Shown here: one piece after another, positions 1,544-16,685 of the stretch
Layout: every line of letters starts with the position of its first letter
Numbering within the stretch: the first letter of the stretch is position 1
Origin: Cellvibrio sp. KY-GH-1
GTDB taxonomy: Bacteria > Pseudomonadota > Gammaproteobacteria > Pseudomonadales > Cellvibrionaceae
DNA: 64,000 nt
NCBI RefSeq assembly: GCF_008806975.1
Contig: NZ_CP031728.1
Span: 868,001-932,000, forward strand
Reading direction: 5' to 3'
Made by a program: the position numbers and the translations under genes
Notes under the pieces: generated by a model
Seen by the model: only the letters and a program-made list of their open reading frames with translations
Told to the model about the DNA's origin: nothing
Database searches by the model: none

Positions 1544-1552
1544 GCCAAAATG

Positions 1553-2850: not shown

Positions 2851-2866
2851 ATTTGAGGGTAGGGCA

Positions 2867-3007
2867 GTGAAAGACAAACGCGACAAAAGCACAGCAGATA
2901 TTTTTACCGGCCAACGTCCTGTTGGTCGTCCACGTCTCCACCAGTCAAACGCTGACAAACAGCGTTTATATCGTCAACGTAAGAAAGAGGCTTTGTTATG
3001 TCAGTAG
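2867..3007 (+). CDS. Short basic phage protein
   Basis: A 46-residue frame starts at GTG 2867 behind GAGGGTAGGG. It encodes a Lys/Arg-rich protein with a GQRPVGRPR stretch followed by a DKQRLYRQRKKEA helix. Similar very short RPVGRP-type proteins occur beside the replication genes of other inoviruses. It overlaps the start of the ssDNA-binding protein gene by 10 bases, so it is probably translationally coupled. Nucleic-acid binding is likely from composition; the actual role is unknown. Confidence 0.55.
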   Translation: MKDKRDKSTADIFTGQRPVGRPRLHQSNADKQRLYRQRKKEALLCQ

Positions 3008-3291
3008 TTATCGAAATCGCTTCAACGCAAGTGCAAACCCGTTCCGGTACATCACAAAAGGGTAAGCCTTACACCATCAACGAGCAGGCCGCTTATATGC
3101 ATATCGGCCAGCCGTATCCGGTGCAGATAAAAATCAATTTGGAGAATGGCCAGCCACCGTATCAGCCCGGCAATTACGATTTGCATCCGCAATCATTTTC
3201 TGCTGATCGCTTTGGTGGTATTTCAGTTCGCCCGTTGTTGGTTCCTCGTCCTGCTGAGCAACGTCAACAGCCTTCGGTTAAAGCAGGTTAA
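2998..3291 (+). CDS. ssDNA-binding (helix-destabilising) protein, gene V-like
   Basis: The product is 97 residues with a short SGTSQKGKPY turn, a beta-rich core and YQPGNYDLHPQSF near the C-terminus, in keeping with the OB-fold gene V/G5P family of filamentous phages. These proteins coat new plus strands, stop their conversion to double strand and deliver them for assembly. Position right after the replication genes fits. The satellites lack a recognisable copy, so they may depend on this protein. Confidence 0.8.
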   Translation: MSVVIEIASTQVQTRSGTSQKGKPYTINEQAAYMHIGQPYPVQIKINLENGQPPYQPGNYDLHPQSFSADRFGGISVRPLLVPRPAEQRQQPSVKAG

Positions 3292-3293
3292 TC

Positions 3294-3389
3294 ATGCAAG
3301 ACGTAATTTATTTTGCAATTTACCCGGTGCTTATTGTCATCGGTGTTATAGCAGCAAATTACGTCTCAAAGCGTCACAAAGGTAATTGA
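3294..3389 (+). CDS. Very short membrane protein, minor coat-like
   Basis: A 31-residue frame starts 2 bases after the upstream stop. It has a short acidic N-terminus, one hydrophobic helix (FAIYPVLIVIGVIAANYV) and a basic end (SKRHKGN). Size and layout match the tiny pVII/pIX-like minor coat proteins of filamentous phages, encoded just before the major coat gene. Assignment is from position and shape only. Confidence 0.6.
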   Translation: MQDVIYFAIYPVLIVIGVIAANYVSKRHKGN

Positions 3390-3390
3390 T

Positions 3391-3489
3391 ATGGACGCCG
3401 ATTTGTTACAACAAATTTTTGATCTTTTGTTTGTTGCCTCTCATTGCTTTGCCGCAATGAAGGGCTGGCAAGCAGGGAGTACCCGCTAA
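3391..3489 (+). CDS. Very short phage protein, possibly a minor coat protein
   Basis: A 32-residue frame starts one base after the previous stop. It has an acidic N-terminus, a moderately hydrophobic middle (LLQQIFDLLFVASHCFAA) and a polar end. It overlaps the next frame by one base (TAATG). The tight packing with its neighbours supports real translation; function is unknown. Confidence 0.5.
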   Translation: MDADLLQQIFDLLFVASHCFAAMKGWQAGSTR

Positions 3490-3602
3490 TGACTGCATCA
3501 GATGTTGCATTATTTATTGGCGGGTTGTTTGGCTGTTGGTGCCTCGGTTGGGGTACTGCATTTGTTTTTACTGTAATCAAGCAATTTATGGAGAAAATCT
3601 AA
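3489..3602 (+). CDS. Very short single-span membrane protein
   Basis: A 37-residue frame has a Gly/Trp-rich hydrophobic segment (LFIGGLFGCWCLGWGTAFVF) and a short basic end. Its start overlaps the stop of the preceding frame (TAATG) and its stop overlaps the start of the coat gene, so the three are coupled. It ends with GGAG, which serves as ribosome binding site for the coat gene. Probably a minor virion or assembly protein. Confidence 0.55.
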   Translation: MTASDVALFIGGLFGCWCLGWGTAFVFTVIKQFMEKI

Positions 3603-3844
3603 TGAACTCAATTTTTGGTGTTTTACGTTCACGCGGTGCAAGTGTTAAAGCTGCTGTTGCTGTCGCCTTGTTGGTTTCTGCTGCTGGTGCTCATGCTGAG
3701 TTGCCAGAGTGGGCAAGCGGTATTGGCGAAAAAATATCAGGTGCTATTGCCGATTCTGCCGCAATGGTCGGCCCATTATTTGCCGCCGCGTTGGTTGCTG
3801 GTTTGATTTTCAAACTTGTTAAACGTTTCACCAACAAAGTGTAA
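3602..3844 (+). CDS. Major coat protein precursor (pVIII-like)
   Basis: An 80-residue protein starts at ATG 3602, the start with GGAG 9 bases upstream. Residues 1-32 form a long signal peptide with basic region, hydrophobic stretch and AHA cleavage site. The mature part would be 48 residues: acidic amphipathic N-terminus (ELPEWASGIGEK), hydrophobic helix (MVGPLFAAALVAGLIF) and a Lys/Arg-rich end that contacts DNA. This is the three-part design and nearly the length of the Ff coat protein. It is followed by a terminator, as in Ff phages. This gene is missing from all three small elements. Confidence 0.9.
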   Translation: MNSIFGVLRSRGASVKAAVAVALLVSAAGAHAELPEWASGIGEKISGAIADSAAMVGPLFAAALVAGLIFKLVKRFTNKV

Positions 3845-3930
3845 CAACGCAATAACCGCACAGGCGCAGCCTGTGGGGTTATGAAGTTGTTATTTTTTGT
3901 TGTGCAATCCCTAAAACCCGCACTTTCACA

Positions 3931-3953
3931 CCCGCTGAATTTGCGGGTTTTTT
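3931..3953 (+). terminator. Terminator after the coat gene
   Basis: Stem CCCGC/GCGGG with a 7-base loop is followed by six T. It separates the highly expressed coat gene from the adsorption gene, the same place as the central terminator of Ff phages. Confidence 0.8.
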
Positions 3954-3966
3954 AATGGGCTAATTT

Positions 3967-5250
3967 ATGCGGTATTTGATTTTATTTTCTCTTTTGTTTT
4001 TTTCTTCTTTTTCATTTGCGCAACAAATGAGTTGTGTTGGTGATGCTGGCGGCGCTAACGATTGCGGAACGCGCGGCGGCAATCCTACCAAAATTTCTAA
4101 CGGTGCCTCTGTTTGCGTAAATAATCATAATTTATTTGTCTATGACCGCGCTTGCGGTGCTGGAACTGTTAACCCTACCGGCTCAGTTTATAAGTGTTGG
4201 AACTCGTGTTCTTGCTCCCCCCCTTATGAGTTGACTACCATTCTTGAACAGGGCAATTGGGTTTCCAAATGTGTCATTCCCGGCGGTGATCCCGGTGATG
4301 GTGATGAGTGTGAATCCGGCCAACCAAAAGTTTATGATCCTTCAACCGGCCAGATGGTTTGCCCCGGTTCCGGTGATGGCAGTAGTAGCGCTGCTGCGTC
4401 ATCGCAATCTTGTGTTGTTCCCGGTGATTTTAATGGTGATTGTGTTCCTGACACTGCAAGCTCTGAATCAAATAGCTCGCCTCCTGCGTCTGCTGCTAAT
4501 TCTTCTCCGCCTTCATCAGCTTCTGCATCGTCGCCGCCGTCTTCAACTGGTGGTGATTCTGACGGTGGTGGTGGCGGTGGTGGTGGCGGCGGTGGTGGCT
4601 CCGGTAGTGGTGCGCAAAATAGTTCGTCACCTTCTGGCTCAAATTCTTCGTGGACTCCTTATGCCCAATACGGCAATTGGATTCCTGTATCCGCTGACTC
4701 CAATTGCCCAAATAAATATAAAGATGCTTCGGGCCAGTGGTGGTGTAGTGGCTCGACTGGCTCTAATACATCTGCAAAAGGTGAATGTGATCCTACGTCT
4801 AAGGATTATTTAGCCTGTATTACGCAATCTGGTGTTAATAATTCTTCCGGCTCTAACTCTTCTGAGTGCAATCCTTCCATGTCTAATTATTTGGATTGCT
4901 CCGGTAAGCTTTCCGAATCTCAAGGCAAGATTTCAGAGTTAGCCGATAAATTTTCTGAGTCTACAGATAAGGAAATGGAGAAATTTAAAAAGGCCGTTGA
5001 TGATGATTTGACTAACTTCCAGCGCGACGGCCTTTCTTTTAAAGATCAGCCTTCTATTTTGCGATCTGCGTTGGTTGCTTTTTTGCCTGTTTCACGCTCT
5101 TGCAATCCGCCACCGTTAAAAATTATGGGTTCAACCTATGAGCTTGATTGCGAATATTTCGAGCTTTTCAAATCTGCATTTGGTTGGTTTTTGGCGGTGC
5201 TCACTGTCTGGAATATTTGGCAGTTAGCTATCAGACCTGTTGATCGATAG
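3967..5250 (+). CDS. Adsorption protein, pIII-like
   Basis: The 427-residue product has a signal peptide (hydrophobic run ending SFSFA|QQ), a Cys-rich N-terminal part (to ~residue 110), a long low-complexity Ser/Pro/Ala and poly-Gly linker (~residues 140-225), more Cys-containing segments, a helical region and a C-terminal membrane anchor (FGWFLAVLTVWNIWQL) with a basic tail. This is the layout of pIII receptor-binding proteins, which sit at the virion tip, bind pilus and envelope receptors, and release the phage by the membrane-anchored C-terminal domain. The C-terminal part also resembles TspB-type inovirus proteins. The exact receptor cannot be told. Confidence 0.8.
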   Translation: MRYLILFSLLFFSSFSFAQQMSCVGDAGGANDCGTRGGNPTKISNGASVCVNNHNLFVYDRACGAGTVNPTGSVYKCWNSCSCSPPYELTTILEQGNWVSKCVIPGGDPGDGDECESGQPKVYDPSTGQMVCPGSGDGSSSAAASSQSCVVPGDFNGDCVPDTASSESNSSPPASAANSSPPSSASASSPPSSTGGDSDGGGGGGGGGGGGSGSGAQNSSSPSGSNSSWTPYAQYGNWIPVSADSNCPNKYKDASGQWWCSGSTGSNTSAKGECDPTSKDYLACITQSGVNNSSGSNSSECNPSMSNYLDCSGKLSESQGKISELADKFSESTDKEMEKFKKAVDDDLTNFQRDGLSFKDQPSILRSALVAFLPVSRSCNPPPLKIMGSTYELDCEYFELFKSAFGWFLAVLTVWNIWQLAIRPVDR

Positions 5251-5261
5251 TGGGGTTATTT

Positions 5262-5594
5262 ATGCATTACATAGTTATTGCTATTACTTTTTTAGCCACG
5301 TTTCTAGCAGATATTTTTACGCGCTCTGTTGGTGTTGTTTTTGAGATTCTTACTAAGCGCATTTTAATTATTGCTTCATGCCTTACTGTTCTTGCTGCTT
5401 TTGTGGTTGCTTTTTATGCGTTGATTTTGACCTTGGTTAATTCAATATCTGCCACACTGCCGCCGTTCTTTTCTGCCGCCGCGTCCATGGTTGTACCTGA
5501 TAATTTTATTACTATCGTTTCTATCCAGATCACTGCGCGCATTGCCCGTTGGGCCTATGAATGGAATGTCAAAGTTTTGCAATGGAGGCTCTAA
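5262..5594 (+). CDS. pVI-like minor coat protein (DUF2523-like)
   Basis: From ATG 5262 the product is 110 residues with three hydrophobic segments and almost no polar domain. A GTG at 5250 in the same frame would overlap the adsorption gene stop; ATG 5262 behind GGGG is preferred. Membrane proteins of this size between pIII and Zot are pVI-like and cap the virion end together with pIII. The next gene starts 1 base after its stop. Confidence 0.7.
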   Translation: MHYIVIAITFLATFLADIFTRSVGVVFEILTKRILIIASCLTVLAAFVVAFYALILTLVNSISATLPPFFSAAASMVVPDNFITIVSIQITARIARWAYEWNVKVLQWRL

Positions 5595-5595
5595 C

Positions 5596-6753
5596 GTGTC
5601 TGTTTATATTGTCACTGGCAAACTTGGTAATGGTAAAACCTTGGTCACTGTGGGTCGCATTGGTGATGCCATTAGGGCAGGGTGCCGCGTTGCTACCAAT
5701 CTTGATATCAATTTAAAAAATATGTTTGGTCGACATGCAAAAAATATCAATTTGATGCGCATACCTGACAAGCCAAACATTGATGATTTAAATGCGATCG
5801 GCAAAGGATATGAGGGCAGGGACTATGATGAAAACAAATTTGGAATTTTGGTTTTGGATGAATGCGGTACTTGGTTTAATTCGCGCAATTGGCAGGATAA
5901 AACCCGTAAGGATGTGAACGACTGGTTTTTACATGCGCGCAAATTGGGCTGGCATGTTTACATTATCATTCAGGACATTTCGATGCTTGATTCACAGGCC
6001 CGCGATGCAATCGGTGAATTGCTGGTTACCTGTAAGCGACTGGATAAAATTCGTGTTCCGTTTATTGCGCCCCTTGTTAAAACGCTCACCGGAATTAATT
6101 TAACCATGCCTCGTATACATCGAGCGAAAGTTACTTATGCCGATGGTCTTGTTAGTGATGTCTGGGTTTATCGCGGTAACAATCTTTTTCGCTGCTATGA
6201 CACTCGCCAAAGCTTTATCCAGAATTACCCGCACGCAACCCATAGTTTATTAACCCCATGGCACCTTTACGGCCGCCATGCTGTTGAGATGAATTGGAGC
6301 AATATCATGAGGATTACGAGAATTTACTGGAAACGTTTTGCTAGTCCGGTTTCCTTGGCAACTGGTCTTTTGCTGGGTGCGTTTGCCATGCTGTTGCATT
6401 CCCAACCGACTGTTTTGCCGCAACCCGTTAACCAGGTGAATTTGTCCTCACAGGCACCAGTTTTGCCAGCGTCACCGGCACCGGCTAAAAACCCGTTTGA
6501 TGGCTCCAAAATTTATGTTGTTGGCGACTTGTCCGGACAGCTGTTATTTCAGGTCGATTTGCCCGGCGGTAGTTATATCGGTATCACTGAGGCTGAACTG
6601 GTGAGTTTGGGTTTTGACGTTGTAAAGCTTTCGCGTGGCGTGGTTAAGCTTACGTTTGAGTCTGAATTGATTTATGCGTTGCCGAAACCTAGCGCGCCCA
6701 TGGTCGCCGATCGCTCTGTAACGGTTTCTGGTGCTGTTGGCGGGGATAATTGA
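5596..6753 (+). CDS. Zot-like phage assembly ATPase (pI-like)
   Basis: The start is GTG 5596 behind GGAGG, giving 385 residues. Walker A is GKLGNGKT near residue 9 and Walker B is ILVLDEC near residue 90. A single membrane span lies near residues 250-268 (SLATGLLLGAFAMLLH). The rest is a periplasmic part with Pro/Ala-rich linker. This is the pI/Zot family that drives virion extrusion through the envelope at the cost of ATP. The frame is open upstream, but the conserved N-terminus SVYIVTGKLG begins here. The final 128 codons are duplicated at 1-384. Confidence 0.9.
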   Translation: MSVYIVTGKLGNGKTLVTVGRIGDAIRAGCRVATNLDINLKNMFGRHAKNINLMRIPDKPNIDDLNAIGKGYEGRDYDENKFGILVLDECGTWFNSRNWQDKTRKDVNDWFLHARKLGWHVYIIIQDISMLDSQARDAIGELLVTCKRLDKIRVPFIAPLVKTLTGINLTMPRIHRAKVTYADGLVSDVWVYRGNNLFRCYDTRQSFIQNYPHATHSLLTPWHLYGRHAVEMNWSNIMRITRIYWKRFASPVSLATGLLLGAFAMLLHSQPTVLPQPVNQVNLSSQAPVLPASPAPAKNPFDGSKIYVVGDLSGQLLFQVDLPGGSYIGITEAELVSLGFDVVKLSRGVVKLTFESELIYALPKPSAPMVADRSVTVSGAVGGDN

Positions 6754-6775
6754 CCTGACCCTAGGATAATCGTCA

Positions 6776-6892
6776 ATTTCGCATAATGGGCGGCTCAAGT
6801 TATGTTACCGAAGGCCGCGAAGCGGAATTCGAAGCCGTGATAATCGCGTAGCTCACGGCGAGAATTTATACATAACTTGTGTTATGCGAGAT
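6776..6892 (+). other. XerCD att site at the helper|satellite A junction
   Basis: XerC arm ATTTCGCATAA (6776-6786) is followed by a 13-nt centre and XerD-like arm TTATGTTACCG (6800-6810). The inverted partner has its XerD-like part at 6864-6875 and TTATGCGAGAT at 6882-6892. Left of 6786 the sequence is identical to the helper|helper junction; right of it the satellite version begins. This places the recombination point exactly at the XerC arm edge. Confidence 0.8.
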
Positions 6893-6978
6893 TGCGTATC
6901 CCCGTTTTCGATCTTGGTCAGGTTTAGTATTTGTTTTAATCCTAGCACCGTTTATGCCCATTTAACTATCGCTTTGAT

Positions 6979-7113
6979 TTGGTACCAATATTCCACCAGG
7001 TGATGCAATTCCTGGGTTGATTTTGGTACCAAAATCCGTTTATTTTTTAAAACCAAATTGGTACCATTATTCGACCAGGTGTGCCAAACCTGGTTTACTT
7101 ATTGGTACCAAAA
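6979..7113. promoter_or_regulatory. Array of GGTACC-centred palindromes, candidate operators (copy A)
   Basis: Four palindromes centred on GGTACC occur within 135 bp: TTGGTACCAA at 6979 and 7023, ATTGGTACCA at 7057 and TTGGTACCAA at 7102. Between them are two inverted repeats CCAGG...CCTGG (6996-7015 and 7075-7093). The last GGTACC ends just before the 85-aa gene. The pattern looks like a multi-site operator, or iterons of an origin, bound by the product of that gene. The helper has no equivalent array. Confidence 0.65.
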
Positions 7114-7125
7114 CTGGGGTTATCT

Positions 7126-7383
7126 ATGCTTGTTAAGTTTGATGCAGACGAAGATTTGATCGATGCGATTAAACAAAGCACCAACATGGCTGTAGCTAGC
7201 AAGGCGTGTCACTATGCCGCTACTCACTATCTTGATTTGCTACAGGAAAATGCTCGCTTGCACCAGAAAGTTGCTCAAATGCGTGATTCTATTGCGGTTT
7301 ATCGTCAGATTATTGATTCTGCTCGTGATGCTGCCGCGATGCTCGTTGAGCGTGCGGGCCAAGCCGACCTTTTCACTGATTAA
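7126..7383 (+). CDS. 85-aa putative DNA-binding coiled-coil protein (satellite A)
   Basis: ATG 7126 behind GGGG is the preferred start; the frame is open to GTG 7081 inside the operator array. The N-terminal ~40 residues (LVKFDADEDLIDAIKQ then two helices) have the strand-helix-helix look of ribbon-helix-helix proteins. The rest (QENARLHQKVAQMRDSIAVY...) is a coiled coil. With four palindromes directly upstream, an autoregulatory or origin-binding role is likely but inferred. Copy A differs from B and C by Ile/Leu and His/Gln substitutions and a few silent changes. No family was recognised with confidence. Confidence 0.65.
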   Translation: MLVKFDADEDLIDAIKQSTNMAVASKACHYAATHYLDLLQENARLHQKVAQMRDSIAVYRQIIDSARDAAAMLVERAGQADLFTD

Positions 7384-7648
7384 CCTTCTAGGTCTTTCCG
7401 CGCCGGTTTTCTCTCCAGCAAATTCGCACACGAACCGAGTTAGCCTTTCAAGGGAGCTTCTAGCGACCACCGGAAGGCGTTATCTCGGCCGAGGGGATTT
7501 ATCCCCTCGGTTTGCGTTGGCACCGTTTAAACGAATCCATGGGCTTTGGCGCCCGCTGACGCGCGCAGGTACGAGCACGAAAGGCGGGCGCCAGCCCGAA
7601 CGGTGCCTAGTGACACCGTTACAAAGTCCGATGCATCGGAAAAACCCA
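7384..7648. other. Structured non-coding region with helper-like block (copy A)
   Basis: Bases 7416-7490 match helper bases 664-738 (62 of 75 identical, no gap). The block runs into a perfect hairpin at 7489-7510 (10-bp arms, TT loop), at the place where the helper has its own short hairpin. A second long GC-rich hairpin covers 7520-7606: GCACCGTT pairs with AACGGTGC, and TGGCGCCCGC pairs with GCGGGCGCCA. These are the features expected of a filamentous-phage origin or packaging signal. Frames that cross it are shadows. Confidence 0.65.
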
Positions 7649-7990
7649 TTATTTTTGCTTTTCGGCAGCTCTTAGCCGGTCTGCTGTTGATTGAGCTATG
7701 AATGCAGCTATTAGTTCTTTGATGGTGGCTTGCTTTCCTTCTGGCAGTGTTTCTATTGCATTTAGCATGTACTTCATCCCATTTGGCCCCTCTGTTCCAA
7801 AAACCAATTCTTCCATGGATACACCTAGGGCGCTTGATAGTGCCACCACTGTTTCTAAAACAGGGTTTTTCTGTATCCCAATTTCCAGTTTTGATATTTG
7901 CCCCTTGCTTACCCCTGAGCGCTCTGCCAAGTCATCTTGGCTTATTCCCCTTTCCGCACGTATGCGTTTTAAATTTTCGCTTAAGCGCAT
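7649..7990 (-). CDS. XRE-family repressor of the satellite (copy A)
   Basis: The 113-residue protein has a canonical HTH_3 domain (LKRIRAERGISQDDLAERSGVSKGQISKLE, residues ~7-36, split here only for reading) and a short helical tail that probably dimerises. The gene is divergent from rep with 96 bp between, the position of rstR in CTXphi/RS1. It is unrelated in sequence to the helper repressor at 1247-1543. Satellite and helper should therefore not share repressor immunity. It probably represses the rep promoter at 8038-8066 and its own promoter. Confidence 0.85.
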   Translation of the reverse strand: MRLSENLKRIRAERGISQDDLAERSGVSKGQISKLEIGIQKNPVLETVVALSSALGVSMEELVFGTEGPNGMKYMLNAIETLPEGKQATIKELIAAFIAQSTADRLRAAEKQK

Positions 7991-8020
7991 TTTTTATGCC
8001 TTTTGGTGGTTATGTATGAC

Positions 8021-8066
8021 CAACTTTATCATTTAAGTTGACATTTATGTCTACTATAACTATATA
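8021..8066 (+). promoter_or_regulatory. Satellite rep promoter with overlapping inverted repeats (copy A)
   Basis: TTGACA at 8038-8043 and TATATA at 8061-8066 are 17 bp apart, a near-consensus sigma-70 promoter. Inverted repeat CAACTT...AAGTTG (8021-8040) abuts it and GACATTTATGTC (8040-8051) covers the -35 box. Both are good candidates for repressor operators. Confidence 0.65.
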
Positions 8067-8086
8067 TGCACACATAAAGTAATCAT

Positions 8087-9181
8087 ATGAATCCACTTTG
8101 GCCTGACTATGCAAATTTGTTTTTGGTGGTTTACATGCAACAAGTAGGGATGATTGATTGGTTAACACTTTGGCTTGATGCCAGCTTGCTTGATCGTAAA
8201 TCAATGCATCGCGTTTTAAAGAATGCTGATCGTGTGCAACGTATTAATGGCTTAACAGGTGAGATTCAATGGGAGTCGGCAGTACGTGAGCATATCCGTT
8301 CTGATGATCACAATGTAACTGTAAATTTTGGTTCACGATTGCAAATTCAGGGAAGCCCAGCGCGCGTAGTTTCCGCGCACAATGTTTTTGGTTCTTTAGA
8401 TATTCAAGAGTGTGCAAAACAAATGATTCTTTTTGTTGCAAAGCATCACTCTATGATTATTCCTTCCGATTTAAAAATGTGGTCATGTTCTCGTATCGAT
8501 GTTACTCAAAATTTTGATATGGGCTCATTAGCTCAAGCACAGCAAGCCGTTGATTATTTAAAACCGTTGAAGTGCGGAAGACAAAAAACTAGCACTTTTG
8601 ACACATCTGTTATTTGGGGTAGGGGATCTACCTTGCATAAAGGAAAGGCTTATTTAAAAGGCCCGCAGCTTCGCGAGTTAGTTACTAAAAACAATGCTCG
8701 TGTTAGTGATGAAGAGTTAGCAAAAGCGGATCGTTTGTTGAGATTAGAGTATTCCATGTGTAGGGGTTTGATTCGCCGGATACGCGAAAGCACCGGTAAG
8801 AATTGGTATGACTTCACGCCTGATTTTTTACTTTTTCATCATTCAGATTATTTTTCTAAATTTATATCCACTATTGAGGTGGTTGATATGTGCAATATTC
8901 TAGAGCGGTTGCTTAATAACGTTGGTTCCGATGAAGGGCAAATTCCAACTGAAGGTAGGGCGCGAGCCGCTTATCGTTGTTATACCGACATTCGTTCACG
9001 TGGTCTTCATATTACTAAACAAGATTACAGAAAGGCGACTTGGTATGACCATTTAAAGCATTTGAGATCAATTGGTTTGGCGGATGCGGATTTACAACCA
9101 TCTAATGTGGTTCCGCTTCGTCGTCGCCAAATTTTTCTCGATCAACCGGTCTCTAGTTGGGACCAAATTAACTTAGCTTGA
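8087..9181 (+). CDS. Satellite replication initiator, gene II/X-like (copy A)
   Basis: The frame gives 364 residues. Conserved sequence begins at MIDWLTL (ATG 8150), which matches FFDWLTV at the start of helper Rep, so the true start may be 8087, 8135 or 8150; none has a strong Shine-Dalgarno. A CSRIDVTQNF motif near residue 142 parallels the IHITSN motif of helper Rep. The C-terminal block (RGLHITKQDY...LRSIGLADADL) is Phage_X-like. It should nick the satellite origin for rolling-circle replication. It is very different in sequence from helper Rep, so the satellite seems to replicate by its own enzyme while lacking virion genes. Confidence 0.8.
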   Translation: MNPLWPDYANLFLVVYMQQVGMIDWLTLWLDASLLDRKSMHRVLKNADRVQRINGLTGEIQWESAVREHIRSDDHNVTVNFGSRLQIQGSPARVVSAHNVFGSLDIQECAKQMILFVAKHHSMIIPSDLKMWSCSRIDVTQNFDMGSLAQAQQAVDYLKPLKCGRQKTSTFDTSVIWGRGSTLHKGKAYLKGPQLRELVTKNNARVSDEELAKADRLLRLEYSMCRGLIRRIRESTGKNWYDFTPDFLLFHHSDYFSKFISTIEVVDMCNILERLLNNVGSDEGQIPTEGRARAAYRCYTDIRSRGLHITKQDYRKATWYDHLKHLRSIGLADADLQPSNVVPLRRRQIFLDQPVSSWDQINLA

Positions 9182-9191
9182 GGCTTCATAT

Positions 9192-9440
9192 ATGACTACT
9201 GTTAATAAAACCTCTCTTGATGTTTGTGCGCTTGCCATGATGTCCAATACTTATTTTTTTCAACATCGGAACCCTTTGCATTCATCTTTGCATGTTATCG
9301 GTGAAGCCAGGGTTACTGCTGTTGTGATTCATGAGGATGCACCGCCAGATATACTTCTTCATCCAGTTTCTGATGATTATCAAAGTTTTTACCCTATTCA
9401 GGATTTGTCTTTTTCTTCTTCGCTTTCTGCTGCCGGCTGA
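9192..9440 (+). CDS. 82-aa satellite protein of unknown function (copy A)
   Basis: The gene starts 10 bases after rep. The product has no signal peptide or membrane segment and no recognised family. It has a central beta-prone stretch (ARVTAVVIHEDAPPDILLHP) and a Ser-rich end. The position directly after rep is where inoviruses place their ssDNA-binding protein, so such a role can be suspected. Sequence similarity to the helper gene V-like protein is not visible. Confidence 0.55.
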   Translation: MTTVNKTSLDVCALAMMSNTYFFQHRNPLHSSLHVIGEARVTAVVIHEDAPPDILLHPVSDDYQSFYPIQDLSFSSSLSAAG

Positions 9441-9530
9441 TTTCGCTTTTATTTTTTTCTCCTGTAATATTCGCCGTTATCGTCAAGGTTAAACCTTGTA
9501 GGTAATGGCTTTTTTATTGGAGTTTTGGAT

Positions 9531-10037
9531 ATGCCTTTTGCTTTGAAATCGCGTTTTTATGTCGGCGTTTATGATCCATCAACGTACGATTCATGGCCTT
9601 ATTTTCATTTAGATGAAGGTGTATATCTTTCTAAAAATAAGCGGCTATGTTCCCATAAAAGCGCAATTGAGTTTGATGATCCGGAAAAGGCAAGAGAGTT
9701 TTACGCATCTTGGCAGCATGCTGATCGCTACCGCCTTCACGTTTGTCCTTTCCAGACTCATGTTGAAGTGCCTATGCCTGTATTTCCTGATGATCATCCT
9801 CGATCAATATTGAGGCGCATTGAGAGTAATGAACCACGTTATATTTTTAATACTGCGCTTCGATGGTTTTTTGGTGATTCAAGATTTTTTCTGGCTAAAT
9901 CCACTTTAGCTAAGCATCGAAAAATTTTGCTGGCTTATGGAATAGATATCAACTGTAAACCTGATGTTTTACTTGAGCCGTTGCCAAGCCTTGATGAAAA
10001 ACCTTATTCATCTAAGCCGTCATTATCGGTTGTTTGA
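9531..10037 (+). CDS. 168-aa satellite protein with a Rep-like (Phage_X-type) tail (copy A)
   Basis: Start ATG 9531 is chosen because TTGGAG lies 8 bases upstream; a TTG two codons earlier is less likely. The N-terminal ~100 residues are unrecognised and rich in Tyr/His/Asp. Residues ~117-153 (ALRWFFGD...LAKSTLAKHRKILLAYGIDI) line up with the end of helper Rep (AIQWMHGHK...LTKTQVQTHRARLRQIGIDI), sharing the HR and GIDI positions. In Ff phages the C-terminal part of pII is also made alone as pX, which modulates replication. A similar modulating role, perhaps against the helper, is speculation. Confidence 0.6.
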   Translation: MPFALKSRFYVGVYDPSTYDSWPYFHLDEGVYLSKNKRLCSHKSAIEFDDPEKAREFYASWQHADRYRLHVCPFQTHVEVPMPVFPDDHPRSILRRIESNEPRYIFNTALRWFFGDSRFFLAKSTLAKHRKILLAYGIDINCKPDVLLEPLPSLDEKPYSSKPSLSVV

Positions 10038-10044
10038 CGAATGG

Positions 10045-10069
10045 TTGGCGGCCTTAGATAGACCGCCAA
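10045..10069. terminator. Hairpin at the 3' end of the satellite gene block (copy A)
   Basis: Arms TTGGCGG and CCGCCAA with an 11-base loop start 7 bases after the last gene and end 12 bases before the XerC arm. It has only a short A/T tail, so it may be a weak terminator or an mRNA end. Repeated at 13333-13357 and 16621-16645. Confidence 0.45.
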
Positions 10070-10081
10070 AACGGATATGCA

Positions 10082-10180
10082 ATTTCGCATAAGGCGAGCG
10101 AGGTTATGTTCAATTCGAAGCGGTGAAAATTGCGAAGCACTCACCGCGAGAATTTATACATAACCTGCATTATGCGAGAT
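10082..10180 (+). other. XerCD att site at the satellite A|B junction
   Basis: XerC arm ATTTCGCATAA (10082-10092), 11-nt centre and XerD-like TTATGTTCAAT (10104-10114). The inverted partner is ATTTATACATAA (10152-10163), a 6-nt spacer, and TTATGCGAGAT (10170-10180). Read in reverse the partner has the true dif spacing of 6. GCGGTGA and TCACCGC between them can form the stem of the folded site. Confidence 0.8.
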
Positions 10181-10266
10181 TGCCTGTCCCCGTTTTCGAT
10201 CTTGGTCTGGTTTAGTATTTGTTTTAATCCTAGCACCGTTTATGCCCATTTAACTATCTCTCTGAT

Positions 10267-10399
10267 TTGGTACCAATATTCGGCCAGGTGATGCAATTCC
10301 TGGATTGATTTTGGTACCAAAATCCGTTTATTTTCTAAAACCAAATTGGTACCATTATTCGACCAGGTGCGCCAAACCTGGCTTACTTATTGGTACCAA
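10267..10399. promoter_or_regulatory. GGTACC palindrome array (copy B)
   Basis: GGTACC-centred palindromes lie at 10267, 10311, 10346 and 10390, with interleaved CCAGG/CCTGG inverted repeats, upstream of the 85-aa gene. Small base changes from copy A leave every palindrome core intact, which suggests that they are under selection. Confidence 0.65.
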
Positions 10400-10413
10400 A
10401 ATTGGGATTATCT

Positions 10414-10671
10414 ATGCTTGTTAAGTTTGATGCAGATGAAGATTTGATCGATGCGCTTAAACAAAGCACCAACATGGCTGTAGCTAGCAAGGCGTGCCAT
10501 TATGCCGCTACTCAATATCTTGATTTGTTGCAGGAAAATGCCCGCTTGCACCAGAAAGTGGCTCAAATGCGTGATTCTATTGCGGTTTATCGTCAGATTA
10601 TTGATTCTGCTCGTGATGCTGCCGCGATGCTCGTTGAGCGTGCGGGCCAAGCCGACCTTTTCACTGATTAA
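10414..10671 (+). CDS. 85-aa putative DNA-binding coiled-coil protein (copy B)
   Basis: Same protein as at 7126-7383 with two substitutions (Leu for Ile in DALKQ, Gln for His in ATQYLD). Identical to the copy at 13702-13959. The start is ATG 10414; upstream in-frame codons lie inside the operator array. Confidence 0.65.
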   Translation: MLVKFDADEDLIDALKQSTNMAVASKACHYAATQYLDLLQENARLHQKVAQMRDSIAVYRQIIDSARDAAAMLVERAGQADLFTD

Positions 10672-10936
10672 CCTTCTAGGTCTTTCCGCGCCGGTTTTCT
10701 CTCCAGCAAATTCGCACACGAACCGAGTTAGCCTTTCAAGGGAGCTTCTAGCGACCACCGGAAGGCGTTATCTCGGCCGAGGGGATTTATCCCCTCGGTT
10801 TGCGTTGGCACCGTTTAAACGAATCCATGGGCTTTGGCGCCCGCTGACGCGCGCAGGTACGAGCACGAAAGGCGGGCGCCAGCCCGAACGGTGCCTAGTG
10901 ACACCGTTACAAAGTCCGATGCATCGGAAAAACCCA
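10672..10936. other. Structured non-coding region with helper-like block (copy B)
   Basis: The helper-like 75-nt block is at 10704-10778, the perfect hairpin at 10777-10798 and the long GC-rich hairpin at 10808-10894. No difference from copy A was seen in this part. Confidence 0.6.
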
Positions 10937-11278
10937 TTATTTTTGCTTTTCGGCAGCTCTTAGCCGGTCTGCTGTTGATTGAGCTATGAATGCAGCTATT
11001 AGTTCTTTGATGGTGGCTTGCTTTCCTTCTGGCAGTGTTTCTATTGCATTTAGCATGTACTTCATCCCATTTGGCCCCTCTGTTCCAAAAACCAATTCTT
11101 CCATGGATACACCTAGGGCGCTTGATAGTGCCACCACTGTTTCTAAAACAGGGTTTTTCTGTATCCCAATTTCCAGTTTTGATATTTGCCCCTTGCTTAC
11201 CCCTGAGCGCTCTGCCAAGTCATCTTGGCTTATTCCCCTTTCCGCACGTATGCGTTTTAAATTTTCGCTTAAGCGCAT
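10937..11278 (-). CDS. XRE-family satellite repressor (copy B)
   Basis: Protein identical to that at 7649-7990: 113 residues, N-terminal helix-turn-helix, divergent from rep. Several identical repressor genes raise repressor dosage and may strengthen immunity against further satellite replication. Confidence 0.85.
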   Translation of the reverse strand: MRLSENLKRIRAERGISQDDLAERSGVSKGQISKLEIGIQKNPVLETVVALSSALGVSMEELVFGTEGPNGMKYMLNAIETLPEGKQATIKELIAAFIAQSTADRLRAAEKQK

Positions 11279-11308
11279 TTTTTATGCCTTTTGGTGGTTA
11301 TGTATGAC

Positions 11309-11354
11309 CAACTTTATCATTTAAGTTGACATTTATGTCTACTATAACTATATA
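11309..11354 (+). promoter_or_regulatory. Satellite rep promoter and operators (copy B)
   Basis: Same TTGACA (11326) - 17 bp - TATATA (11349) promoter with the two overlapping inverted repeats as in copy A. Confidence 0.65.
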
Positions 11355-11374
11355 TGCACACATAAAGTAATCAT

Positions 11375-12469
11375 ATGAATCCACTTTGGCCTGACTATGC
11401 AAATTTGTTTTTGGTGGTTTACATGCAACAAGTAGGGATGATTGATTGGTTAACACTTTGGCTTGATGCCAGCTTGCTTGATCGTAAATCAATGCATCGC
11501 GTTTTAAAGAATGCTGATCGTGTGCAACGTATTAATGGCTTAACAGGTGAGATTCAATGGGAGTCGGCAGTACGTGAGCATATCCGTTCTGATGATCACA
11601 ATGTAACTGTAAATTTTGGTTCACGATTGCAAATTCAGGGAAGCCCAGCGCGCGTAGTTTCCGCGCACAATGTTTTTGGTTCTTTAGATATTCAAGAGTG
11701 TGCAAAACAAATGATTCTTTTTGTTGCAAAGCATCACTCTATGATTATTCCTTCCGATTTAAAAATGTGGTCATGTTCTCGTATCGATGTTACTCAAAAT
11801 TTTGATATGGGCTCATTAGCTCAAGCACAGCAAGCCGTTGATTATTTAAAACCGTTGAAGTGCGGAAGACAAAAAACTAGCACTTTTGACACATCTGTTA
11901 TTTGGGGTAGGGGATCTACCTTGCATAAAGGAAAGGCTTATTTAAAAGGCCCGCAGCTTCGCGAGTTAGTTACTAAAAACAATGCTCGTGTTAGTGATGA
12001 AGAGTTAGCAAAAGCGGATCGTTTGTTGAGATTAGAGTATTCCATGTGTAGGGGTTTGATTCGCCGGATACGCGAAAGCACCGGTAAGAATTGGTATGAC
12101 TTCACGCCTGATTTTTTACTTTTTCATCATTCAGATTATTTTTCTAAATTTATATCCACTATTGAGGTGGTTGATATGTGCAATATTCTAGAGCGGTTGC
12201 TTAATAACGTTGGTTCCGATGAAGGGCAAATTCCAACTGAAGGTAGGGCGCGAGCCGCTTATCGTTGTTATACCGACATTCGTTCACGTGGTCTTCATAT
12301 TACTAAACAAGATTACAGAAAGGCGACTTGGTATGACCATTTAAAGCATTTGAGATCAATTGGTTTGGCGGATGCGGATTTACAACCATCTAATGTGGTT
12401 CCGCTTCGTCGTCGCCAAATTTTTCTCGATCAACCGGTCTCTAGTTGGGACCAAATTAACTTAGCTTGA
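11375..12469 (+). CDS. Satellite replication initiator (copy B)
   Basis: Identical in protein sequence to the frame at 8087-9181, with the same start uncertainty (11375, 11423 or 11438). No frameshift or stop interrupts it, so every copy can encode an intact Rep. Confidence 0.8.
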   Translation: MNPLWPDYANLFLVVYMQQVGMIDWLTLWLDASLLDRKSMHRVLKNADRVQRINGLTGEIQWESAVREHIRSDDHNVTVNFGSRLQIQGSPARVVSAHNVFGSLDIQECAKQMILFVAKHHSMIIPSDLKMWSCSRIDVTQNFDMGSLAQAQQAVDYLKPLKCGRQKTSTFDTSVIWGRGSTLHKGKAYLKGPQLRELVTKNNARVSDEELAKADRLLRLEYSMCRGLIRRIRESTGKNWYDFTPDFLLFHHSDYFSKFISTIEVVDMCNILERLLNNVGSDEGQIPTEGRARAAYRCYTDIRSRGLHITKQDYRKATWYDHLKHLRSIGLADADLQPSNVVPLRRRQIFLDQPVSSWDQINLA

Positions 12470-12479
12470 GGCTTCATAT

Positions 12480-12728
12480 ATGACTACTGTTAATAAAACC
12501 TCTCTTGATGTTTGTGCGCTTGCCATGATGTCCAATACTTATTTTTTTCAACATCGGAACCCTTTGCATTCATCTTTGCATGTTATCGGTGAAGCCAGGG
12601 TTACTGCTGTTGTGATTCATGAGGATGCACCGCCAGATATACTTCTTCATCCAGTTTCTGATGATTATCAAAGTTTTTACCCTATTCAGGATTTGTCTTT
12701 TTCTTCTTCGCTTTCTGCTGCCGGCTGA
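12480..12728 (+). CDS. 82-aa satellite protein of unknown function (copy B)
   Basis: Identical to 9192-9440. Follows rep by 10 bases. No family recognised. Confidence 0.55.
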   Translation: MTTVNKTSLDVCALAMMSNTYFFQHRNPLHSSLHVIGEARVTAVVIHEDAPPDILLHPVSDDYQSFYPIQDLSFSSSLSAAG

Positions 12729-12818
12729 TTTCGCTTTTATTTTTTTCTCCTGTAATATTCGCCGTTATCGTCAAGGTTAAACCTTGTAGGTAATGGCTTT
12801 TTTATTGGAGTTTTGGAT

Positions 12819-13325
12819 ATGCCTTTTGCTTTGAAATCGCGTTTTTATGTCGGCGTTTATGATCCATCAACGTACGATTCATGGCCTTATTTTCATTTAG
12901 ATGAAGGTGTATATCTTTCTAAAAATAAGCGGCTATGTTCCCATAAAAGCGCAATTGAGTTTGATGATCCGGAAAAGGCAAGAGAGTTTTACGCATCTTG
13001 GCAGCATGCTGATCGCTACCGCCTTCACGTTTGTCCTTTCCAGACTCATGTTGAAGTGCCTATGCCTGTATTTCCTGATGATCATCCTCGATCAATATTG
13101 AGGCGCATTGAGAGTAATGAACCACGTTATATTTTTAATACTGCGCTTCGATGGTTTTTTGGTGATTCAAGATTTTTTCTGGCTAAATCCACTTTAGCTA
13201 AGCATCGAAAAATTTTGCTGGCTTATGGAATAGATATCAACTGTAAACCTGATGTTTTACTTGAGCCGTTGCCAAGCCTTGATGAAAAACCTTATTCATC
13301 TAAGCCGTCATTATCGGTTGTTTGA
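12819..13325 (+). CDS. 168-aa protein with Rep-like tail (copy B)
   Basis: Identical to 9531-10037; start ATG 12819 behind TTGGAG. The conserved tail ending YGIDI is intact. Confidence 0.6.
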   Translation: MPFALKSRFYVGVYDPSTYDSWPYFHLDEGVYLSKNKRLCSHKSAIEFDDPEKAREFYASWQHADRYRLHVCPFQTHVEVPMPVFPDDHPRSILRRIESNEPRYIFNTALRWFFGDSRFFLAKSTLAKHRKILLAYGIDINCKPDVLLEPLPSLDEKPYSSKPSLSVV

Positions 13326-13369
13326 CGAATGGTTGGCGGCCTTAGATAGACCGCCAAAACGGATATGCA

Positions 13370-13468
13370 ATTTCGCATAAGGCGAGCGAGGTTATGTTCA
13401 ATTCGAAGCGGTGAAAATTGCGAAGCACTCACCGCGAGAATTTATACATAACCTGCATTATGCGAGAT
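13370..13468 (+). other. XerCD att site at the satellite B|C junction
   Basis: Same structure as at 10082-10180: XerC arm 13370-13380, XerD-like arm 13392-13402, inverted partner to 13468. Confidence 0.8.
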
Positions 13469-13554
13469 TGCCTGTCCCCGTTTTCGATCTTGGTCTGGTT
13501 TAGTATTTGTTTTAATCCTAGCACCGTTTATGCCCATTTAACTATCTCTCTGAT

Positions 13555-13687
13555 TTGGTACCAATATTCGGCCAGGTGATGCAATTCCTGGATTGATTTT
13601 GGTACCAAAATCCGTTTATTTTCTAAAACCAAATTGGTACCATTATTCGACCAGGTGCGCCAAACCTGGCTTACTTATTGGTACCAA
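13555..13687. promoter_or_regulatory. GGTACC palindrome array (copy C)
   Basis: Palindromes at 13555, 13599, 13634 and 13678 with the interleaved CCAGG/CCTGG repeats, as in copy B. Confidence 0.65.
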
Positions 13688-13701
13688 AATTGGGATTATC
13701 T

Positions 13702-13959
13702 ATGCTTGTTAAGTTTGATGCAGATGAAGATTTGATCGATGCGCTTAAACAAAGCACCAACATGGCTGTAGCTAGCAAGGCGTGCCATTATGCCGCTACT
13801 CAATATCTTGATTTGTTGCAGGAAAATGCCCGCTTGCACCAGAAAGTGGCTCAAATGCGTGATTCTATTGCGGTTTATCGTCAGATTATTGATTCTGCTC
13901 GTGATGCTGCCGCGATGCTCGTTGAGCGTGCGGGCCAAGCCGACCTTTTCACTGATTAA
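13702..13959 (+). CDS. 85-aa putative DNA-binding coiled-coil protein (copy C)
   Basis: Identical to the copy B protein (10414-10671); ribbon-helix-helix-like start and coiled-coil end. Confidence 0.65.
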   Translation: MLVKFDADEDLIDALKQSTNMAVASKACHYAATQYLDLLQENARLHQKVAQMRDSIAVYRQIIDSARDAAAMLVERAGQADLFTD

Positions 13960-14224
13960 CCTTCTAGGTCTTTCCGCGCCGGTTTTCTCTCCAGCAAATT
14001 CGCACACGAACCGAGTTAGCCTTTCAAGGGAGCTTCTAGCGACCACCGGAAGGCGTTATCTCGGCCGAGGGGATTTATCCCCTCGGTTTGCGTTGGCACC
14101 GTTTAAACGAATCCATGGGCTTTGGCGCCCGCTGACGCGCGCAGGTACGAGCACGAAAGGCGGGCGCCAGCCCGAACGGTGCCTAGTGACACCGTTACAA
14201 AGTCCGATGCATCGGAAAAACCCA
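13960..14224. other. Structured non-coding region with helper-like block (copy C)
   Basis: Helper-like block at 13992-14066, perfect hairpin at 14065-14086, long hairpin at 14096-14182. Confidence 0.6.
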
Positions 14225-14566
14225 TTATTTTTGCTTTTCGGCAGCTCTTAGCCGGTCTGCTGTTGATTGAGCTATGAATGCAGCTATTAGTTCTTTGATG
14301 GTGGCTTGCTTTCCTTCTGGCAGTGTTTCTATTGCATTTAGCATGTACTTCATCCCATTTGGCCCCTCTGTTCCAAAAACCAATTCTTCCATGGATACAC
14401 CTAGGGCGCTTGATAGTGCCACCACTGTTTCTAAAACAGGGTTTTTCTGTATCCCAATTTCCAGTTTTGATATTTGCCCCTTGCTTACCCCTGAGCGCTC
14501 TGCCAAGTCATCTTGGCTTATTCCCCTTTCCGCACGTATGCGTTTTAAATTTTCGCTTAAGCGCAT
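14225..14566 (-). CDS. XRE-family satellite repressor (copy C)
   Basis: Protein identical to copies A and B, divergent from the copy C rep gene. Confidence 0.85.
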   Translation of the reverse strand: MRLSENLKRIRAERGISQDDLAERSGVSKGQISKLEIGIQKNPVLETVVALSSALGVSMEELVFGTEGPNGMKYMLNAIETLPEGKQATIKELIAAFIAQSTADRLRAAEKQK

Positions 14567-14596
14567 TTTTTATGCCTTTTGGTGGTTATGTATGAC

Positions 14597-14642
14597 CAAC
14601 TTTATCATTTAAGTTGACATTTATGTCTACTATAACTATATA
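14597..14642 (+). promoter_or_regulatory. Satellite rep promoter and operators (copy C)
   Basis: TTGACA at 14614 and TATATA at 14637 with the same overlapping inverted repeats. Confidence 0.65.
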
Positions 14643-14662
14643 TGCACACATAAAGTAATCAT

Positions 14663-15757
14663 ATGAATCCACTTTGGCCTGACTATGCAAATTTGTTTTT
14701 GGTGGTTTACATGCAACAAGTAGGGATGATTGATTGGTTAACACTTTGGCTTGATGCCAGCTTGCTTGATCGTAAATCAATGCATCGCGTTTTAAAGAAT
14801 GCTGATCGTGTGCAACGTATTAATGGCTTAACAGGTGAGATTCAATGGGAGTCGGCAGTACGTGAGCATATCCGTTCTGATGATCACAATGTAACTGTAA
14901 ATTTTGGTTCACGATTGCAAATTCAGGGAAGCCCAGCGCGCGTAGTTTCCGCGCACAATGTTTTTGGTTCTTTAGATATTCAAGAGTGTGCAAAACAAAT
15001 GATTCTTTTTGTTGCAAAGCATCACTCTATGATTATTCCTTCCGATTTAAAAATGTGGTCATGTTCTCGTATCGATGTTACTCAAAATTTTGATATGGGC
15101 TCATTAGCTCAAGCACAGCAAGCCGTTGATTATTTAAAACCGTTGAAGTGCGGAAGACAAAAAACTAGCACTTTTGACACATCTGTTATTTGGGGTAGGG
15201 GATCTACCTTGCATAAAGGAAAGGCTTATTTAAAAGGCCCGCAGCTTCGCGAGTTAGTTACTAAAAACAATGCTCGTGTTAGTGATGAAGAGTTAGCAAA
15301 AGCGGATCGTTTGTTGAGATTAGAGTATTCCATGTGTAGGGGTTTGATTCGCCGGATACGCGAAAGCACCGGTAAGAATTGGTATGACTTCACGCCTGAT
15401 TTTTTACTTTTTCATCATTCAGATTATTTTTCTAAATTTATATCCACTATTGAGGTGGTTGATATGTGCAATATTCTAGAGCGGTTGCTTAATAACGTTG
15501 GTTCCGATGAAGGGCAAATTCCAACTGAAGGTAGGGCGCGAGCCGCTTATCGTTGTTATACCGACATTCGTTCACGTGGTCTTCATATTACTAAACAAGA
15601 TTACAGAAAGGCGACTTGGTATGACCATTTAAAGCATTTGAGATCAATTGGTTTGGCGGATGCGGATTTACAACCATCTAATGTGGTTCCGCTTCGTCGT
15701 CGCCAAATTTTTCTCGATCAACCGGTCTCTAGTTGGGACCAAATTAACTTAGCTTGA
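14663..15757 (+). CDS. Satellite replication initiator (copy C)
   Basis: Identical in protein sequence to copies A and B; intact gene II/X-like Rep with conserved MIDWLTL start region. Confidence 0.8.
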   Translation: MNPLWPDYANLFLVVYMQQVGMIDWLTLWLDASLLDRKSMHRVLKNADRVQRINGLTGEIQWESAVREHIRSDDHNVTVNFGSRLQIQGSPARVVSAHNVFGSLDIQECAKQMILFVAKHHSMIIPSDLKMWSCSRIDVTQNFDMGSLAQAQQAVDYLKPLKCGRQKTSTFDTSVIWGRGSTLHKGKAYLKGPQLRELVTKNNARVSDEELAKADRLLRLEYSMCRGLIRRIRESTGKNWYDFTPDFLLFHHSDYFSKFISTIEVVDMCNILERLLNNVGSDEGQIPTEGRARAAYRCYTDIRSRGLHITKQDYRKATWYDHLKHLRSIGLADADLQPSNVVPLRRRQIFLDQPVSSWDQINLA

Positions 15758-15767
15758 GGCTTCATAT

Positions 15768-16016
15768 ATGACTACTGTTAATAAAACCTCTCTTGATGTT
15801 TGTGCGCTTGCCATGATGTCCAATACTTATTTTTTTCAACATCGGAACCCTTTGCATTCATCTTTGCATGTTATCGGTGAAGCCAGGGTTACTGCTGTTG
15901 TGATTCATGAGGATGCACCGCCAGATATACTTCTTCATCCAGTTTCTGATGATTATCAAAGTTTTTACCCTATTCAGGATTTGTCTTTTTCTTCTTCGCT
16001 TTCTGCTGCCGGCTGA
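15768..16016 (+). CDS. 82-aa satellite protein of unknown function (copy C)
   Basis: Identical to copies A and B. No family recognised. Confidence 0.55.
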   Translation: MTTVNKTSLDVCALAMMSNTYFFQHRNPLHSSLHVIGEARVTAVVIHEDAPPDILLHPVSDDYQSFYPIQDLSFSSSLSAAG

Positions 16017-16106
16017 TTTCGCTTTTATTTTTTTCTCCTGTAATATTCGCCGTTATCGTCAAGGTTAAACCTTGTAGGTAATGGCTTTTTTATTGGAGTT
16101 TTGGAT

Positions 16107-16613
16107 ATGCCTTTTGCTTTGAAATCGCGTTTTTATGTCGGCGTTTATGATCCATCAACGTACGATTCATGGCCTTATTTTCATTTAGATGAAGGTGTAT
16201 ATCTTTCTAAAAATAAGCGGCTATGTTCCCATAAAAGCGCAATTGAGTTTGATGATCCGGAAAAGGCAAGAGAGTTTTACGCATCTTGGCAGCATGCTGA
16301 TCGCTACCGCCTTCACGTTTGTCCTTTCCAGACTCATGTTGAAGTGCCTATGCCTGTATTTCCTGATGATCATCCTCGATCAATATTGAGGCGCATTGAG
16401 AGTAATGAACCACGTTATATTTTTAATACTGCGCTTCGATGGTTTTTTGGTGATTCAAGATTTTTTCTGGCTAAATCCACTTTAGCTAAGCATCGAAAAA
16501 TTTTGCTGGCTTATGGAATAGATATCAACTGTAAACCTGATGTTTTACTTGAGCCGTTGCCAAGCCTTGATGAAAAACCTTATTCATCTAAGCCGTCATT
16601 ATCGGTTGTTTGA
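16107..16613 (+). CDS. 168-aa protein with Rep-like tail (copy C)
   Basis: Identical to copies A and B; start ATG 16107. Last gene before the chromosomal dif site. Confidence 0.6.
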   Translation: MPFALKSRFYVGVYDPSTYDSWPYFHLDEGVYLSKNKRLCSHKSAIEFDDPEKAREFYASWQHADRYRLHVCPFQTHVEVPMPVFPDDHPRSILRRIESNEPRYIFNTALRWFFGDSRFFLAKSTLAKHRKILLAYGIDINCKPDVLLEPLPSLDEKPYSSKPSLSVV

Positions 16614-16657
16614 CGAATGGTTGGCGGCCTTAGATAGACCGCCAAAACGGATATGCA

Positions 16658-16685
16658 ATTTCGCATAATGTAGATTATGTTAAAT
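16658..16685 (+). other. dif: Chromosomal dif site (XerCD)
   Basis: XerC arm ATTTCGCATAA (16658-16668), 6-bp spacer TGTAGA and XerD arm TTATGTTAAAT (16675-16685). The XerD arm is identical to E. coli dif, and the spacer and inner XerC arm (CGCATAA) differ from it only at one spacer base. This is the site where chromosome dimers are resolved, so the window lies at the replication terminus. It is also the integration site of the phage array. The right half exists only here, while the left junctions carry degenerate phage versions. Confidence 0.92.

Follow-up and report, generated by a model that had tools for sequence, protein, structure and literature searches.

The window analysed here is a 64,000-nt stretch of the genome of Cellvibrio sp. 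KY-GH-1 (NZ_CP031728.1, positions 868,001 to 932,000, forward strand), in which two copies of an inovirus are followed by three copies of a 3.3-kb unit, the array ending at an intact dif site. Taken as a whole, the 3.3-kb unit is probably best explained as a filamentous-phage satellite that replicates by its own means, is exported by the neighbouring inovirus (the helper) and bears a four-stem element as a cis-acting signal. The satellite status of the units is well supported. From the sequences alone, we infer packaging by the neighbour because a covarying single-stranded DNA (ssDNA) element is common to helper and satellite.

A coat-less unit with its own replication module at dif

Each unit has five genes, encoding an 85-aa open reading frame (ORF), an XRE repressor, a replication initiator (Rep) and proteins of 82 and 168 aa, and the reading frames are open in all three copies. 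In unit 1, the 85-aa ORF (7126..7383, + strand), a putative autoregulator that we read as RHH-like, matched PHROG 8031, of unknown function; it differs from that of unit 2 by 9 bases and 2 residues, and four GGTACC palindromes (6981..7109) lie upstream of it, with the same spacing in units 2 and 3. The XRE repressor (113 aa; 7649..7990, - strand) matched HTH_3 (E 2.7e-16), and the Rep (364 aa; 8087..9181, + strand) belongs to the G2P N-terminal family (PF05144, E 5.4e-22; PHROG 702, E 1.9e-42). The 82-aa gene (9192..9440, + strand) and the 168-aa gene (9531..10037, + strand; a 170-aa ORF from 9525) complete the set. No coat, pIII, pVI or Zot gene was found among the five genes using Pfam and PHROGs, and a tblastn search of unit 2 with ten proteins of the helper and six structural proteins from the inoviruses in G018 and G019 revealed no structural homologue (E up to 0.01; genome, contig, locus and protein labels are our own). 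A preliminary description of this stretch had given each unit a Rep, an XRE repressor and three small genes and no coat, adsorption, pVI or Zot gene, and both statements were borne out, the profile search having found no coat or Zot homologue. Since it lacks a detectable pI/Zot ATPase or coat, the unit falls outside the autonomous Inoviridae; its own replication module and lack of virion genes are those of an inovirus satellite.

Hydrophobic ORFs of the unit coincide with genes read in different frames and, on inspection by eye, were dismissed as shadow frames. The idea that the small genes form a defence system was dropped, as PADLOC matched none of 7 proteins. Rfam matched nothing in the window, and there was no useful match for the first-gene protein in the phage collection or for the satellite Rep in viral_contigs.

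The helper and satellite Reps both fall in PHROG 702, yet the helper Rep aligned with the unit over just 28 residues (E 0.009). A candidate satellite (+)origin (7599..7627, + strand) contains the motif AACGGT..CTAGTRACACCGTTACAAA, found in elements with a satellite-type Rep (this satellite, G019, G031:C116 and G044). The motif of the candidate helper (+)origin (936..967, + strand), GGGGTACGGGT..C.GTTACACCCGTACTTTG, is common to G026, an inovirus with the helper's Rep type, and has a shorter match in G039. Both motifs were picked by eye and afterwards looked up in 11 stretches, so they are a description and not a test. The satellite would keep a repressor and a rolling-circle initiator of its own, the latter matched by the candidate (+)origin; the earlier proposal that it replicates with its own Rep is supported insofar as Rep and candidate (+)origin differ in sequence from those of the helper.

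The XerC arms, TTCGCATAA, lie at 409, 6778, 10084, 13372 and 16660, and unit borders were counted from the first base after each arm. On the + strand, unit 1 occupies 6787..10092 (3306 bp), unit 2 10093..13380 (3288 bp) and unit 3 13381..16668 (3288 bp); units 2 and 3 are identical across all 3288 bases. The positions of the arms and the comparison of the units thus agree with the three tandem units of 3306, 3288 and 3288 bp reported previously. Between units 1 and 2 there are 26 substitutions, confined to the variant left part of unit 1 (6857-7272), and the left junction of unit 1 is 18 bp longer. All 26 substitutions fall upstream of the candidate (+)origin at 7599-7627. If circles run from origin to origin, as in CTXphi, the left end of unit 1 would never be copied, and this would account for the divergence of that part alone.

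The inovirus noted earlier directly to the left of the units is helper copy 2 (418..6786, + strand, 6369 bp), and a first helper copy precedes it. The window starts within copy 1, of which it holds the right end (1..417, + strand; Zot C terminus and XerC arm); the second Zot lies at G000:C1:867230, and the two Zot genes in the genome are 6369 bp apart. The two copies showed 0 differences over two overlapping compared stretches (6361 and 408 bases). The intact dif (16660..16685, + strand) forms the right end of the array. A dif pattern allowing up to 3 mismatches matched once each in 19 of 21 genomes of the genus, and a gene flanking the array adjoins dif in 15 of those 19 short loci, its own genome included.

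Both elements have an attP consisting of a long hairpin of (+)ssDNA with two inverted XerC arms, which places them in the CTX class. The hairpins lie on the + strand at 405..530 in the helper (fold z -5.8), at 6774..6898 at the junction of helper and unit 1 (fold z -4.2) and at 10080..10185 in the satellite (fold z -6.4), the last with an identical sequence at 13368-13473. The host XerC/XerD would insert the satellite at dif beside the helper through this folded attP. Integration through a folded (+)ssDNA attP of the CTX class is described as irreversible in the available text of PMC4246890, and because of this, genomes would come from the tandem array, with Rep nicking the origin of one unit and running to the next, as inferred from CTXphi. 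The order of two helper copies followed by three satellite copies, together with the expectation that new insertions enter at the intact dif, suggests that the satellites arrived after the helper copies.

A four-stem element common to helper and satellite

Beyond attP and short pieces at chance level, the DNA common to helper and satellite comprises one noncoding element of about 99 nt, located on the + strand at 666..764 in the helper and at 7418..7515, 10706..10803 and 13994..14091 in units 1, 2 and 3. The helper and satellite copies agree at 62 of 74 bases (84%; 80.6 bits), and 60 shuffles of the satellite scored at most 31 bits. Both fold alike into an outer stem and three hairpins. When five sequences (helper, satellite, G019, G018 and the G031 satellite) were aligned with MAFFT, 96.2% of 104 cells were paired; none of 500 shuffles matched this pairing, and slid alignments paired 35.6-48.0%. 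The paired-cell measure is favoured, as the structure was derived from folds of the same sequences, and compensatory changes are the stronger evidence: 14 of 21 pairs were altered on both sides and 0 on one side. When the set was widened to 10 distinct sequences, in an alignment fitted to the model, changes on both sides were seen in 17 of 21 pairs. The element is oriented as the Rep gene in all nine loci with an identified Rep, that of G018 being weakly identified.

A covariance model, R1, matched in 8 of 144 genomes of the family, including five loci on which it had not been trained (G016, G029, G028, G031:C87 and G044), one of which is a dif-integrated coat-less unit of another genus. Of 390 genomes sampled from the order, a second model matched in two, G000 and G016. 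These large searches used stricter filters and scored few candidates per genome, so copies can be missed. The four-stem pattern was also found on one contig of viral_contigs, whose encoded proteins are those of the C. mixtus J3-8 element.

The carriers include three inoviruses, namely the helper, G019:C45 (on a contig without Zot) and G018, which has an integrase, a Zot gene and a Rep that is weakly Rep_trans-like (PF02486, E 0.0012, below the cut-off). Coat-less carriers of the dif type are the satellite units, a circular contig of G031 (3669 nt minus an overlap of 141 nt) and, in G044, a stretch of 4.5 kb located at dif. The element of G044 (Gilvimarinus sp. SDUM040013; L026 6879-11430) looks composite: it has a pair of origin motifs and a pair of att-like sites, and of these sites the first alone has a full hairpin. 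Coat-less carriers of the integrase type (G016, G029 and G028) have a GPA-type Rep, an integrase and small genes, and in G016 and G029 repeats of 21-23 nt with the sequence of the end of the transfer-messenger RNA (tmRNA) gene lie 5160 and 5281 bp apart. Rfam, applied to five loci, found tmRNA alone, with two matches (G029 and G028). Integrase-type elements at L116 5821-11001, L117 77-5380 and L119 about 320-5600 each contain a 124-aa gene and the four-stem element and no Zot; those of L116 and L117 are bounded by repeats with the tmRNA-end sequence. At G031:C87 (L118 5661-8240), the element lies beside a secretin gene, an HNH gene and a short ORF that we read as CsrA-like.

The element was not detected in G026 (best E 8.6) or in the Zot-bearing loci G019:C5, G025, G022 and G029:C17 (best E 1.5), and the model found nothing significant in If1, the stretch 5400-6407 of M13 or phiAFP1 (best E 0.6). 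The incomplete contig G031:C116 was matched only weakly (E 0.92), right at its beginning.

Small genes, coat-less relatives and the role of the element

A correction concerns the 168-aa protein, whose type is not wholly unknown: an N-terminal part without known family is joined to a stand-alone G2P_X_C (pX-like) domain. The C terminus resembles G2P_X_C in Pfam at E 0.001, below the family cut-off, and PHROG 17464 at E 1.4e-5. A profile of the family matched four helper-type Reps (E 5e-8 to 5e-6, in a set of six) and did not match the satellite's own Rep (E 0.48) or that of G019 (E 0.33). A new virion protein is not favoured, as the C terminus is G2P_X_C-like. Ff phages make this domain by itself, as pX, which regulates replication. 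Because of this role and the likeness to the C termini of helper-type Reps, the 168-aa protein may conceivably damp or redirect helper replication as a decoy of the Rep C-terminal domain. Stand-alone relatives, which possibly have a role outside satellites, were seen at L021 11995-12507, L023 9824-10342 and L024 9515-10159, on a Methylomonas plasmid and in two genomes of the genus of the window, one of them beside a CsrA gene.

Homologues of the 168-aa protein numbered 20 among 5.8 billion proteins, 18 of them with a longest contig of at most 3.7 kb; for three, the longest contigs were 3309, 3366 and 3684 nt. The 170-aa protein had no useful match in the viral_contigs, genome_contigs and phage collections. 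Relatives of the 82-aa gene were found only on the coat-less G031 contig and in two metagenome clusters. The longest contigs of the 82-aa homologues P0022 and P0023 (2055 and 2671) equal those of the 168-aa homologues P0001 and P0003, which suggests that the two genes are linked. Neither gene had a match at E 0.001 on 16 inovirus loci. The circular coat-less contig of G031 encodes an 82-aa homologue (38-42%), a broken 168-aa-like gene and a different Rep.

These data bear on the possibility that the units are what deletion has left of an ordinary inovirus, were amplified at dif and move by accident only. The nearest relative of the Rep (82%) does share a contig with inovirus-like structural genes (L006/L028). 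However, the genes are open in all copies, the 82-aa and 168-aa genes, unmatched on the 16 inovirus loci, recur in the G031 circle (the latter in broken form), and nearly all homologues of the 170-aa protein, as counted above, have a longest contig of at most 3.7 kb. We therefore regard this origin as very unlikely.

The coat-less guild, as defined here, comprises seven genomes (G000, G016, G028, G029, G031, G039 and G044). Through a gene of 109-124 aa, the integrase-type elements are connected to G044 and to the 3198-bp tandem units of G039; no support was obtained for homology between the 82-aa gene and the genes of about 104 aa in integrase-type elements (probability 2.3). In G039 (Teredinibacter sp. 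KSP-S5-2; L031 9841-16246), two identical 3198-bp units with Rep, XRE and small genes lie in tandem at a dif-like site. No coat genes were found in them, the one-contig genome gave no Zot match, and the four-stem element was not detected. These G039 units are what would be expected if the Cellvibrio units, too, were rolling-circle plasmids that integrate at dif and need no phage, the element having become common with inoviruses through recombination in the same host. The ssDNA-type attP, which fits delivery as a single strand, the array common with the helper and the 84% likeness of the element to that of the helper speak against such plasmids, and we consider them unlikely. The satellite reading stands as the better account of the units.

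For the four-stem element itself, a role as the origin used by Rep is unlikely and was rejected: the candidate (+)origin is at another place and varies with the type of Rep, and the element occurs with both G2P-type and GPA-type Reps. On the coding (+) strand, it would act in cis on the single-stranded form, most likely as a packaging signal and less likely as a complementary-strand origin; we favour packaging, to which we give roughly even chances, over the origin, which we hold to be a lesser but real possibility. For packaging, the element is the sole signal besides attP common to helper and satellite, and the integrase-type carriers use an integrase rather than a XerC attP. The pI/Zot machine and coat of the helper would most likely export the satellite.

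On a broader proposal, which we offer tentatively and which as a whole is rather doubtful, the four-stem element would be a transferable inovirus packaging signal that marks out a satellite guild of ssDNA elements among Cellvibrio and its relatives. It would serve as a tag on different replicons, with G2P-family Reps in the dif type and GPA-type Reps in integrase islands, apparently at tmRNA, and the satellite would decoy the C-terminal domain of the helper Rep and bias production.

Several observations weigh against the satellite reading as a whole. The helper and G018 both carry the element, although their pI/Zot proteins have diverged (24% across 167 aa of the N-terminal region, 37% across 103 aa close to the C terminus), and in G026 it was not detected although the Zot there is 60-68% like that of the helper; its presence in phages with divergent pI/Zot and apparent absence from G026 fit a host-recognised origin at least as well. 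The element region had no match in the phage and plasmid collections. Zot was found in 2 of 7 coat-less genomes and in 24 of 137 others (p 0.61), that is, without enrichment, and the remaining five (G016, G028, G031, G039 and G044) gave no Zot match; co-residence with a helper as a rule is not borne out. For a structure model of the 168-aa protein (mean pLDDT 85.9), searches of PDB and BFVD returned nothing at E 0.001. Members of the 170-aa family also stand by themselves on a Methylomonas plasmid and in two settings that lack inovirus matches, so that the family is not satellite-specific; the stand-alone relatives, seen in G029, in G014 and on the plasmid, and the broken gene of G031 weaken the decoy idea.

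A complementary-strand (minus) origin, with priming by the RNA polymerase or the primase of the host, would be common to helper and satellite through their common host and would be silent on packaging. It would account for an element that accompanies different kinds of Rep and divergent pI/Zot, that among the searched genomes is limited to one host genus and one Gilvimarinus, and that occurs in integrase-type elements tied to inoviruses mainly by the element itself. However, the Zot-bearing loci of the host genus in which no copy was detected (G026, G019:C5, G025, G022 and G029:C17) are not readily expected of such an origin, nor is the lack of a match in the plasmid collection, and we treat it as a possible but not preferred explanation. 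A packaging signal remains our preferred role for the element.

The helper and comparison with known satellites

Helper copy 2 encodes an XRE-like protein (1247-1621, - strand; our reading, with no Pfam match), a Rep (1645-2826; about 50% to the If1 Rep), an SSB (2998-3291), a putative coat ORF (3536-3844), named by position and look, a pIII-like adsorption protein (3967-5250), assigned by position and look with no significant family match, pVI (5250-5594) and a pI/Zot ORF (5491-6753; about 45% to M13 pI and 49% to If1 pI). The Rep, SSB, pVI and pI/Zot assignments come from Pfam and PHROGs. In its pI/Zot and Rep, the helper resembles the Ff/If1 inoviruses; unlike them, it sits at dif.

To our knowledge, few filamentous-phage satellites have been described, and outside the Ff phages little is known of how foreign single strands are selected to be exported. 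A literature search of titles and abstract openings, which covered few subscription papers, returned no report of Cellvibrio inovirus satellites or of a shared folded element; no paper linking integrase-type islands to inoviruses turned up, although no search was aimed at such islands. A look for kin beside inoviruses, as suggested earlier, gave a mixed picture: G031 holds, besides its coat-less circle, a cut-off contig with inovirus-like genes (and no Zot match), and five of the seven coat-less genomes, G031 among them, gave no Zot match. The natural pair of helper and satellite isolates one covarying ssDNA element, besides attP, that is open to deletion tests, and the four-stem model picks out further coat-less elements, integrase-type islands included. 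If the element is indeed a packaging signal, it would provide a sequence-based way to find such satellites.

RS1, the satellite of CTXphi, likewise lies in tandem with its helper at dif and has no coat genes; it has the replication genes of its helper and the antirepressor rstC. In contrast, the unit described here has no replication gene common with its helper, its candidate (+)origin differs too, and its extra genes are the 82-aa gene and the pX-like 168-aa gene, which supports the previous statement that the gene set is unlike that of RS1, as RS1 has been described. RS1 belongs to the same class of CTX-type (+)ssDNA attP and Xer integration, according to the available text of PMC4246890, and that of PMC11389934 has it counteract the repressor. 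The Shewanella satellite pDolos is presented as an inovirus-dependent replicon in the available portions of PMC11389934 and PMC13230959; it is a plasmid, whereas the element here is integrated at dif, and the two are likened by description only. Phage Dolos was absent from the 22 records matched with the helper Rep and from the organism tally of the 88 Zot matches, 60 of which were listed.

TLCphi, the satellite of fs2, as far as the available text of PMC4246890 describes it, has an autonomous replication module, lacks morphogenesis and structural genes and lies at dif. The unit shares with it an own Rep and the absence of morphogenesis genes. Satellites with their own replication module are thus already known and the kind is not new, so that of the suggestion of an undescribed satellite family, the part that stands is the gene set unlike that of RS1. 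The two differ at the attachment site: TLCphi uses a single 28-bp dif-like attP, with XerD acting first (PMC4246890, available text), whereas the Cellvibrio satellite has a folded hairpin attP with two arms.

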